DNA from: Nitrosopumilus adriaticus
GTDB taxonomy: Archaea; Thermoproteota; Nitrososphaeria; Nitrososphaerales; Nitrosopumilaceae
Length of the DNA: 64,000 nucleotides
Reading direction: 5' to 3'
Assembly (NCBI RefSeq): GCF_000956175.1
Contig: NZ_CP011070.1
Location: 1,234,147 to 1,298,146 of the forward strand
Shown here piece by piece: positions 33,982 through 37,450 of the stretch (positions are counted from its first letter, which is position 1; each line of letters opens with the position of its first letter). The notes below the pieces were generated by a model. The model was not told the origin of the DNA. It made no database searches and saw only the letters and a program-made list of their open reading frames with translations. Both the position numbers and the translations under genes were made by a program.

Positions 33982-34353
33982 TTAGGCTTCTTTTTGCGAA
34001 TCTAGTGCAGAGCGTACATGATCAATGATCTTCAAATAGTCAGCCCTAGGTTCCGTACTAACCATAAACAATTCACTAGAATTAATTGGAATGCTAATCA
34101 TTGTCACTTTTTCATATTCTGTAATAGAAGATGTTTCTTTGCCAATTTTGTAGGCCAAGTTAGTGTAAAGCTCTCTTTTTTGTAATGCATAGTGAATAGA
34201 CATTTTTACCTCATCTTCAGATAACATGCCCTCAACATTCTCATTATGGTCTCCAGTTACTAGCTCACCTTTGCTGTTTGCAACCCCCGCAAATCTTACT
34301 TGTGAATCTAAAGCAAGAACTTCTTTTGATAATTTTTCATAATTTATCGCCAT
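33982..34353 (-). CDS. DUF6659-like small protein linked to Amt (123 aa)
   Basis: The protein is the single-domain paralogue of the N-terminal part of the product at 41111-42010: both share KLSKEVLxLDSQVRFAxVxNxKGE, MSIHYALQKRxxYTNL and IxISIPINSxELFxV. The alternation of strands and helices resembles roadblock-type folds, though I cannot prove it. Its start is only 3 nt after the Amt stop, so it is co-transcribed and probably modulates ammonium transport. Cytosolic; no catalytic residues. Confidence 0.65.
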   Translation of the reverse strand: MAINYEKLSKEVLALDSQVRFAGVANSKGELVTGDHNENVEGMLSEDEVKMSIHYALQKRELYTNLAYKIGKETSSITEYEKVTMISIPINSSELFMVSTEPRADYLKIIDHVRSALDSQKEA

Positions 34354-34356
34354 ATT

Positions 34357-35676
34357 TCATCGATCTTTTTTCTTTTTGAATAAGATTTCATCTTTTTCTT
34401 GCAACTCATCTGTATAGTCATCCATATCCAACATGAACTCCTCTTCATCAGAATATGCAGATTCAGCATGCTCACTTATGTCTAGACCGACATCTTCAAC
34501 TTCAGGTGAAACTCTAATGCCAATTAGATGCTTCAACACTTGTAGAATTATCCAAGTACCACCAAAGCCCATTGCAGCCGCGACCCCAACACCTACGGCT
34601 TGAATCCATAATTGATCAGGATTACCAAATAGTAATCCATCAACACCTCCAGGGTTAATCGCAGTGCTTGCAAAAATTCCTATTGCAAGTGCACCTACAA
34701 TTCCTGCAACTCCGTGGACAGAGCTCACGTCAAGTGCATCATCAATCTTCAATCTTTCTTTGAATAGCACTACACCAGAATACGAGATAACACCAATTGC
34801 AATACCAATTACAAATGCATGTTCTGCGCTTACAAATCCAGATGCAGGGGTAATTCCGGCAAGACCTGCAATAGCACCATTAATTGTAGCTACAACAGAT
34901 GGCTTTCCGGTTCTAATCCAAGAAAGGCCAGCCCAAATTAAAGCAGAAACAGAAGAGGCCATGTGAGTAACTATTACAGTGTTTCCTGCAACACCACCTG
35001 ATGCTGAAAGTGCACTTCCTGCATTGAAACCAAACCAACCAAGCCACAATAATGAAGAACCAAGAACTGCAAGTGGAATACTATGAGGAATCATAATTGC
35101 GGGGCCATAATGCCTTCTTCTACCAAGTACAAGTGCGGCAGCAAGAGCTGCCATACCAACACTAGTGTGAATTACAATACCTCCTGCAAAGTCAACTACA
35201 CCTAATTGTGCTAGCCAACCGCCACCCCAGACCCAATGGACTAGAGGATAGTAAATCAGCATAGACCATGCAGAAATGAATATGATAAAAGAACTGAACT
35301 TCATTCTTTCAGCAATTGTTCCTGTAAGTAATAGAGGGGTAATTGCTGCAAACATTAACTGGAATTTTACAAACAACACACCCGGAATTGTTGGAGCGTA
35401 TTGTTCTAATGGAGCATCAGAAGGAACGCCTTTGAGAAAGACCCAATCCATATTTCCAACCAGACCCATTGTAGAGTCACCAAATGATAAACTAAATCCA
35501 AACACGAACCACATTACACTAAGTAAAGCCAAACCAAAGAATATCTGCATGAAAATTGATGCTGCATTCTTTTTTCTTAAGAGACCAGATTCAAAGAGAC
35601 CTAACGCAGGAATCATTAAAAGTACAAGACTGCCAGCTACGAGCATCCATGCTGTATCCCCAGAATCAAGTACCAT
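34357..35676 (-). CDS. amt: Ammonium transporter Amt
   Basis: Eleven membrane helices and family signatures are visible: the N-terminal DTAWMLVAGSLVLLMIPALGLFESG, VHWVWGGGWLAQLG with the first pore His, and SVHGVAGIVGAL with the second. The C-terminal cytosolic tail is extended and acidic (EVEDVGLDISEHAESAYSDEEEF), the region that contacts PII proteins. It supplies ammonium, the energy substrate of these archaea. glnK starts 118 bp away in the opposite direction. Confidence 0.95.
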   Translation of the reverse strand: MVLDSGDTAWMLVAGSLVLLMIPALGLFESGLLRKKNAASIFMQIFFGLALLSVMWFVFGFSLSFGDSTMGLVGNMDWVFLKGVPSDAPLEQYAPTIPGVLFVKFQLMFAAITPLLLTGTIAERMKFSSFIIFISAWSMLIYYPLVHWVWGGGWLAQLGVVDFAGGIVIHTSVGMAALAAALVLGRRRHYGPAIMIPHSIPLAVLGSSLLWLGWFGFNAGSALSASGGVAGNTVIVTHMASSVSALIWAGLSWIRTGKPSVVATINGAIAGLAGITPASGFVSAEHAFVIGIAIGVISYSGVVLFKERLKIDDALDVSSVHGVAGIVGALAIGIFASTAINPGGVDGLLFGNPDQLWIQAVGVGVAAAMGFGGTWIILQVLKHLIGIRVSPEVEDVGLDISEHAESAYSDEEEFMLDMDDYTDELQEKDEILFKKKKDR

Positions 35677-35755
35677 TATTGAAAGGATTTAATTCAAAAC
35701 TAATAACAATGTCTAAAATCGATTACCAAATGATTATCATTTAGTTATCAAAATC

Positions 35756-35766
35756 AGAAATTATAT
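35756..35766 (+). promoter_or_regulatory. Candidate TATA box of glnK
   Basis: AAATTATATTT lies about 30 nt before ATG 35794, in the amt-glnK divergent gap. No clear operator is seen. Confidence 0.35.
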
Positions 35767-35793
35767 TTGTGTAAGGGACAATATGATTACTAA

Positions 35794-36123
35794 ATGCTCA
35801 AAATCGAAGTCATATTAGGCGAAAATGATGTAATGGCGATCAGTGAAGGACTAAAAAAGATCGGCATAGGAGGCCTCACAGTATCCAAAGTCAGAGGAAG
35901 AGGAAAGAGACCAGGTCCGGAAATTCACGCATCAAAAGGAAGTGAGATTTTCACACCACAGTTCAACGACAAATATAGAGTCGAGGCAATTATCACAGAT
36001 GCCATGGAAGATGAAGTTATAGGAATTATCAAAGATAATGGAAGAGTTGGGAAAATTTTTGTCTCTCAGATTTTACGTGCAGTAGATATTGCAACCGGTG
36101 ACGAAGGGGAAAATACAATTTAG
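35794..36123 (+). CDS. glnK: PII signal protein (GlnK-like)
   Basis: The 109-aa protein has the PII core: IEVILGENDVMAISEGLKKIGIGGLTVSKVRGRG, a T-loop (GKRPGPEIHASKGSEIF) and the RVEAIITDAMEDEVIGIIKDNGRVGKIFVSQ strand. The T-loop lacks the Tyr51 that bacterial PII uses for uridylylation, so control must be by ATP/ADP/2-oxoglutarate binding alone or another modification. It should block Amt when nitrogen is plentiful. Two micro membrane proteins follow in the same direction. Confidence 0.92.
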   Translation: MLKIEVILGENDVMAISEGLKKIGIGGLTVSKVRGRGKRPGPEIHASKGSEIFTPQFNDKYRVEAIITDAMEDEVIGIIKDNGRVGKIFVSQILRAVDIATGDEGENTI

Positions 36124-36130
36124 AATTACA

Positions 36131-36259
36131 ATGGATTTACGTAAAAGTAAATTATTTCGCAGAGAAAAGATGCAACCACTTCAACGTAAAGATTACCTCA
36201 AAGTTGCCGTAATGTGCGGAGTAATTATAGTACCATTACTTGTCGGTTTAGTTTTATGA
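36131..36259 (+). CDS. Micro membrane protein behind glnK (42 aa)
   Basis: The frame starts 7 nt after the glnK stop. The basic N-terminus (RKSKLFRREK) is followed by one membrane helix (VAVMCGVIIVPLLVGLVL). It overlaps the next micro gene by ATGA, so glnK and both micro genes are probably one operon. Position suggests a membrane partner of GlnK or Amt. Confidence 0.55.
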   Translation: MDLRKSKLFRREKMQPLQRKDYLKVAVMCGVIIVPLLVGLVL

Positions 36260-36348
36260 AACTCTCAAAAATTTTTATTGCAAAATTAATTCTTGCAGCA
36301 GTTGGAATGACTTTGGTAGGATTAGCTTTGTTTGGACCTTATATCTAA
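36256..36348 (+). CDS. Second micro membrane protein (30 aa)
   Basis: This is a 30-residue single helix (LILAAVGMTLVGLALFG) with a basic start. It overlaps the previous stop by 4 nt and its own stop overlaps the convergent PII-like gene end. Very short, but the coupling supports translation. Confidence 0.45.
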   Translation: MKLSKIFIAKLILAAVGMTLVGLALFGPYI

Positions 36349-36938
36349 TAGTCGCCAAAAGTATTTTCATAAACAACAGTTGGGTTCTTCAATTGTTTTT
36401 CCAAAGTTGGCAGTGATTTTACAATACAGTAATTTACAAAGTCACTAAAAGATTTTATCCTATAATCATCTCTGAGTTTTTCTTTGTTTATCTCATAAAC
36501 TGTTTGCAGTTTATGTAAAGTAAATTTCTGTAACGGAACAAATCTACTTCGTTTAGGTAATGCATTAGATTCTATTTTTTTTTCTAAAGAAACCTCCAAG
36601 TCTTGTTTTGCATCAAGTGTTTCCATATCTACAACTTCTTCCATCTCAGAAACAAAGATTTTTCCACCATGATCAGATGAAAGACCAGAATTTTTTGAAA
36701 TCATCTCTACAACTTTTCTTGCATCTTTGTCAGATACAACAATCTCAATTTTTGCCAAAGGAACGGATTTTATTCCCGTAGAACCAATTCGAGAACCTTT
36801 TACCTCATCATAAATATCACTATCATCCAAATTTCGTTTATCAATTACATATGTCCCCATTACACTCAGATTAGTCTTAATTGTGGTGAAAGTTTTTCGC
36901 TTGATTATTGCCTCTATTTTTTTCACAAATAATTTCAA
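36345..36938 (-). CDS. PII-like protein with C-terminal extension
   Basis: Residues 1-112 follow the PII pattern (MKLFVKKIEAIIKRKTF, IEIVVSDKDARKVVEMISKNSGLSS, GGKIFVSEMEEVVDMETL), with a rewritten T-loop region lacking the usual sequence. About 85 further residues form a helical tail with many Lys and an FVNYCIVKSLP helix. Such extended PII proteins may act on a different target than Amt. It points toward glnK, and is separated from the HTH gene by 164 bp holding the KPARK relic. Confidence 0.75.
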   Translation of the reverse strand: MKLFVKKIEAIIKRKTFTTIKTNLSVMGTYVIDKRNLDDSDIYDEVKGSRIGSTGIKSVPLAKIEIVVSDKDARKVVEMISKNSGLSSDHGGKIFVSEMEEVVDMETLDAKQDLEVSLEKKIESNALPKRSRFVPLQKFTLHKLQTVYEINKEKLRDDYRIKSFSDFVNYCIVKSLPTLEKQLKNPTVVYENTFGDY

Positions 36939-37086: not shown

Positions 37087-37103
37087 TACCGTACGATACG
37101 GTA
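37087..37103. promoter_or_regulatory. Perfect palindrome TACCGTA-CGA-TACGGTA, probable operator
   Basis: Seven-base arms around CGA reach into the start codon of the HTH gene at 37103. Binding there would block transcription or translation start directly, so autoregulation by the HTH protein is likely. Confidence 0.6.
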
Positions 37104-37450
37104 TGATGCGAGCAAGACTAACATACGTACCACTAGAAGTGGCAGACCAATTTGGAGATTTTATCATACAAAGAGACGAACAAGTTCTCGATGCGGTAAA
37201 AGCAAGAACACGAGATTTTAGCACACTGTCTTTGATAAAGTTGCTATATCAATTAAGAGGAAACCCAATGACATTTTCTGATTTGTATTCAAAATCAAAA
37301 ATCAGAATGAAAAAGTCATTTCTAAACTATCTACATCTATGTGTGGATTACAACTTTATCAAAAAAGAAGCAGTAGGTCCAAACATGATCTATACAATCA
37401 CAGACAAAGGACGAACTATGTTGAATCTGTTTATGCAGAAAAGTAATTAG
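37103..37450 (+). CDS. Winged-helix transcriptional regulator (115 aa)
   Basis: The helices DFSTLSLIKLLYQLRG, MTFSDLYSKSKIRMKKSFLNYL and the wing IKKEAVGPNMIYTITDKGRTML give a winged-helix DNA-binding protein of MarR/PadR-like type. The second ATG (37106) is also possible. A perfect palindrome overlaps the start. The following PAC2 gene begins 22 nt after the stop, so the pair may form an operon. Confidence 0.8.
   Translation: MMRARLTYVPLEVADQFGDFIIQRDEQVLDAVKARTRDFSTLSLIKLLYQLRGNPMTFSDLYSKSKIRMKKSFLNYLHLCVDYNFIKKEAVGPNMIYTITDKGRTMLNLFMQKSN

Follow-up and report, generated by a model that had tools for sequence, protein, structure and literature searches.

The PII proteins described so far are not known to work otherwise than by way of partner proteins such as AmtB, PipX, AmtR, and TnrA. 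In NikR, a ribbon-helix-helix (RHH) domain is fused to an ACT-type ligand domain, so that a ferredoxin-like sensor is combined with an RHH-type dimer acting on palindromic operators. In the methanogen Methanosarcina mazei, the nitrogen regulator NrpR controls the transcription of glnK and amt, and sP36, a partly cytoplasmic protein of 61 aa, mediates the contact between GlnK1 and AmtB1 (PMC10714827). A comparison published in 2020 reported that PII repertoires vary among orders, and a review regards the regulation of ammonia partition as a question that is still open.

We analysed a locus in a 64-kb stretch of the genome of Nitrosopumilus adriaticus, hereafter the window (Table 1). As in glnK-amtB pairs, amt is linked to glnK, but here the two genes are divergent, share a common spacer, and are accompanied by two micro ORFs (ORF1 and ORF2) and by a convergent gene for a PII-like protein that we call PIIX. 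This protein resembles canonical GlnB/GlnK in its PII domain, identified by Pfam and by its predicted fold, and differs from them by an extra C-terminal domain, by the loss of the equivalents of the ATP phosphate arginines R101/R103 and of the 2-oxoglutarate residues Q39/K58 (relative to E. coli GlnB), and by a probable DNA target. PIIX would work like NikR, in that one protein would combine sensing and DNA-binding domains, but it is not a member of the NikR family: it has PII in place of ACT, its domains are in reversed order with the putative DNA-binding domain at the C-terminus, its candidate operator consists of three short palindromes, and its RHH membership is putative. It differs from NrpR in being a PII protein, and profile search found no NrpR domain in it. 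ORF1 and ORF2 are, like sP36, small archaeal proteins associated with GlnK/Amt; their size and hydrophobicity set them apart, each being mostly one hydrophobic helix.

Table 1. Features of the amt-glnK-PIIX locus (positions in the window).
Feature	Position	Strand	Evidence or remark
DUF6659 protein, 123 aa	33982-34353	-	3 nt after amt; PF20364, 33.7 bits (cut-off 27)
amt, ammonium transporter of 439 aa with an acidic C-terminal tail	34357-35676	-	PF00909, TIGR00836
amt-glnK spacer	35677-35793		between divergent amt and glnK
Operator-like array	35720-35750	.	CGATTACCA AA TGATTATCA TT TAGTTATCA
TATA-like element of glnK	35758-35767	+	sequence inspection; AAATTATATTTG kept in many aligned spacers
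glnK-type PII, 109 aa	35794-36123	+	PF00543, 54.6 bits
Micro ORF1, 42 aa, basic N-tail, one C-terminal hydrophobic helix	36131-36259	+	
Micro ORF2, 30 aa, one hydrophobic helix	36256-36348	+	ATGA overlap with ORF1 stop
PIIX (PII-like, convergent), 193 aa, probable GTG start	36345-36926	-	PII domain, residues 1-105
PIIX C-terminal domain, putative RHH-like DNA-binding	36345-36554	-	conserved motif, structural model, stand-alone relatives

The gene order agrees largely with the original prediction. Gene calls and Pfam bore out that amt is followed at 3 nt by a DUF6659-like protein, and Amt itself scored highly in the profile search (PF00909, 385.7 bits, E 2.8e-115; TIGR00836, 422.7 with a cut-off of 343.3). 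The divergent glnK is followed by two single-helix ORFs, as had been noted, but the ATGA coupling proposed for both junctions applies to ORF1/ORF2 and not to glnK/ORF1, which are 7 nt apart. The convergent PII-like gene with a C-terminal extension was recovered with another start: GTG at 36926 is the most likely one, since the resulting protein (MKKIEAI...) matches the relatives, and not TTG at 36938. The stop of this gene overlaps that of the convergent ORF2. The source genome contains six matches to the PII family. In the GlnK of the window, the canonical R101/R103 are replaced by D/A (alignment with E. coli GlnB), and its nucleotide binding may differ from that of textbook PII.

The genes flanking this core vary. 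DUF6659 homologues lie behind amt also in L061 and L081-L091, and we rejected DUF6659 as a constant member of the locus because it occupies this position in some clades only; the gene behind amt encodes a PNPOx-like protein in genus g36 and another protein in g25/g31. In the latter two genera (L065-L074), we observed, 43-74 nt behind amt, a protein of ~195 aa with an RHH-like N-terminus (TRSITYRLPxKxVEELE...). On the other side, a winged-helix-like protein (37103-37450) adjoins PIIX and is conserved across the genus, which makes it a candidate further regulator of the locus.

PIIX matches PF00543 with 41.2 bits (cut-off 25), as do 50 out of 50 relatives. Its PII domain has the PII fold in the AlphaFold model (pLDDT 92-94 in the core blocks, lower in the loops), and the 50 PDB matches listed by Foldseek are PII proteins. 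By its domain, PIIX is a PII, yet not a canonical one. Full-length or nearly full-length PIIX was found in genera g1, g25, g31, g33, g34, g36, and g37 of the family and also in family f2; the shorter matches seen in additional genera belong to ordinary PIIs. A search for relatives in a contig library, which may omit near records, returned nearly exclusively ordinary PIIs, with a single true relative (L101, Nitrosopumilales). In viruses, one match was obtained, restricted to the PII domain. PIIX is kept at the locus more widely than the micro ORFs. In family f2 (L201, L202, L203, L208, L209), it is 227-233 aa long, with a long acidic linker, and behind it lies another PII gene, which is degenerate; in L332/L333 of the same family, amt is divergent to PIIX. 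Some copies of PIIX carry an in-frame stop (G003, G126, G148, G149, G166), and these may be pseudogenes, end effects, or sequencing errors.

Conservation of the micro ORFs beside glnK, which had been proposed as a check, was observed: in dozens of genomes, among them much of the genus, G103 (g33), and two g31 genomes, ORF1 and ORF2 come immediately after glnK. The median dN/dS is 0.230 for ORF1 and 0.234 for ORF2, compared with 0.093 for glnK (codon analysis of 34 sequences), and the two are therefore, on evolutionary evidence, translated genes. By this measure, they are real coding genes under purifying selection, confined to some genera. An unrelated gene of ~90 aa stands between them in g34 and in the L019-L023/L083-L091 clade, where both ORFs are retained; this insert (MSLLLITKRGTG..., L386:1369-1644, L019-L023), present in two clades, has no Pfam match.

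One model, which takes up the original inference on the small partners, is that ORF1 and ORF2 act in the membrane to modulate the inhibition of Amt by GlnK, as sP36 does in M. mazei, and that PIIX is a second PII blocking Amt. The conserved position of the micro ORFs behind glnK, the purifying selection on them, the basic tail of ORF1, and the precedent of sP36, which binds both AmtB1 and GlnK1 (PMC10714827), argue in this direction. Yet the micro ORFs are missing behind glnK in g25, g36, and most of g31 and g33, several genera keep amt, glnK, and PIIX without them, ORF1-like genes occur at an unrelated locus, and the T-loop and ligand residues of PIIX are non-canonical. We regard this explanation as unlikely. 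A dedicated role of ORF1 and ORF2 in Amt/GlnK function is possible but not compelling, and this part of it can be compatible with PIIX being a regulator. A pairing of the basic tail of ORF1 with the acidic tail of Amt was also considered and rejected, as the Amt tail is unchanged with or without ORF1 and the two show no correlation. The ORF1-like proteins of g25 and g31 (33-38 aa) are encoded at a separate locus, beside a DUF4352 protein. This second conserved locus (L372-L382) gathers ORF1-like small membrane proteins with DUF4352, PNPOx-like, and winged-helix-like regulator genes, and its ORF1-like protein is lengthened to ~81 aa in g33. Genus g37 has its ORF1-like gene in inverted orientation.

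The C-terminal extension makes PIIX a conserved two-domain protein. This second domain of about 60-70 residues is nearly invariant, with the consensus KRSRxVPLQKxTLxKLxxxYExNKExLxxDYRIKSFSDFVNxCIM in the aligned relatives, and it has stand-alone relatives of 57-70 aa elsewhere in the order, outside this family (L204, L205). A 72-residue model shows an extended basic segment followed by two helices (10-34 and 39-59). Among the 12 best PDB matches of the domain in Foldseek, 11 were RHH-type (ParB) or TCP DNA-binding domains, none of them significant (E > 5); we take TCP domains to be RHH-like. No Pfam RHH family passed the cut-off against PIIX, the stand-alone relatives remained below the cut-off for RHH_1/RHH_5 (E 0.04-0.08), and hhalign gave the profile of the domain a non-significant probability of 1.9% against RHH_1. 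The domain had no match among PDB sequences, and a structure search of a viral library gave no hits. We tentatively class it as RHH-like, a label that is tentative because neither the Foldseek matches nor the comparison with RHH_1 reached significance.

The amt-glnK spacer contains a candidate operator for such a domain, RHH operators being short palindromes that frequently form arrays. It is an array of three 9-bp palindromes of the TGATNATCA type at exact 11-bp steps, a period that brings all of them to the same side of the helix, and it lies between two TATA-like boxes, upstream of both and covering neither. The array is the sole three-copy match in the window (≤6 mismatches) and the sole overlapping tandem pair in the whole genome at ≤2 mismatches. 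We aligned 68 distinct amt-glnK spacers and compared them with dinucleotide shuffles: 66 contain a tandem TGATNATCA pair, with P ≤ 0.015 in 64 and weaker values in L021 and L022 (P 0.05-0.08). Copies occur at ±11 bp and none at ±22 bp, i.e., there are three copies and no fourth, and spacings of 10 or 12 bp gave no signal. The central copy is almost invariant, and the distance of the array from glnK is nearly fixed. The clear misses are L024 and L100. The former comes from a genome without PIIX and has no array in its spacer. The latter (G227) has the same design of three copies at 11 bp with another core, TGTATTTTA/TGTAATACA/TGTTATACA, and its PIIX is strongly diverged (48% identity, VPLQ changed to VSLQ), a single case whose sequences suggest that PIIX and operator may have co-evolved.

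We surveyed 250 genomes of the order, 60 with PIIX and 190 without; PIIX status was left out for three genomes of low completeness (G001, G014, G029). Exact tandem pairs were found in 18 genomes, all of them with PIIX (hypergeometric P = 7.6e-13, a value that ignores phylogeny and overstates independence because the genomes are related), and control patterns had zero matches in the same survey. When one mismatch was allowed, tandem pairs were present in 44 out of 60 genomes with PIIX, against 19 out of 190 without. The exact pairs are located at amt/glnK promoters, at the promoter of PIIX itself (G006), and upstream of another PII gene (G264). This last genome belongs to another family and encodes PIIX; its Amt is only 49% identical, and upstream of it lie three perfect copies spaced by 11 bp and one further copy. 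In g36, PIIX and amt-glnK are not linked (0.73 vs 1.46 Mb in G213), and the array is still at amt-glnK. In L081, L082, L086, and L090, PIIX has its own promoter, with an array 79-101 bp upstream of the gene. Two genomes with an Amt 76-78% identical and a divergent PII (G180, G182) have neither PIIX nor array, and the array was absent from the amt/glnK spacers of the genomes without PIIX that we inspected. In genus g2 of family f2, the array is degenerate, which counts against our main reading, as does the loss from PIIX of the canonical ATP and 2-oxoglutarate residues. The PII-like protein had been presented as a second PII; its PII domain stands, and the operator evidence points instead to a protein that is probably a DNA-binding regulator of the locus.

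Another regulator could bind the TGATNATCA array, with PIIX being a PII that does not bind DNA, uses its extra domain for protein contacts, and is merely co-inherited with the array. The RHH assignment of PIIX is weak, and two other candidates exist, namely the winged-helix-like protein conserved beside PIIX in the genus and the protein with the RHH-like start behind amt in g25/g31. Neither gene is at the locus in all array-bearing genera among the loci that we inspected, whereas PIIX is present in every genome with an exact array and arrays are found at its own promoter where it stands apart. We find a different regulator improbable. It is hardly credible that the repeats belong to the core promoter or the nucleoid organisation of archaeal spacers and form no operator: these spacers are rich in AT and border two TATA-like boxes, but dinucleotide shuffles fail to reproduce the repeats, which form three copies with a strict 11-bp period, are near-absent elsewhere in the genomes, and are absent from the amt-glnK spacers of the inspected genomes that lack PIIX.

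We consider it likely that PIIX is a PII-domain transcription factor controlling the divergent amt and glnK. Its C-terminal domain, probably an RHH-like dimer, would bind the three palindromes between the two core promoters, and PIIX would thus regulate amt, glnK, and, in some clades, its own gene. A nitrogen or energy signal would enter through the PII domain, which may act by itself or form mixed trimers with GlnK. PII proteins are trimeric and RHH proteins dimeric, so that a hypothetical hexamer linking two PII trimers through three RHH dimers would fit the three operator copies. Because the array is upstream of both TATA-like boxes and covers neither, activation of amt and glnK is slightly favoured over repression. 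GlnK would then adjust the Amt protein itself, and ORF1 and ORF2 would be lineage-specific accessories. A more ambitious proposal, which we advance with some doubt, is that PIIX may be the first PII to bind DNA directly and would serve ammonia-oxidising archaea as a one-component nitrogen regulator, sitting in this hexameric form on its operator of three copies. GlnK could then enter the trimer, which would tie the inhibition of Amt to the transcription of amt.

In open-access papers, subscription journals being outside the scope of the search, we found no literature on a DNA-binding PII and none on a nitrogen transcription factor in these archaea. As a regulator of amt and glnK, PIIX would be a candidate gene for nitrogen control in these ammonia oxidisers. 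With its candidate regulator, putative operator, and target promoters, the locus lends itself to work in vitro on DNA and purified protein, for which no genetic system is needed. If true, a PII domain acting directly on DNA would widen the known roles of PII proteins.
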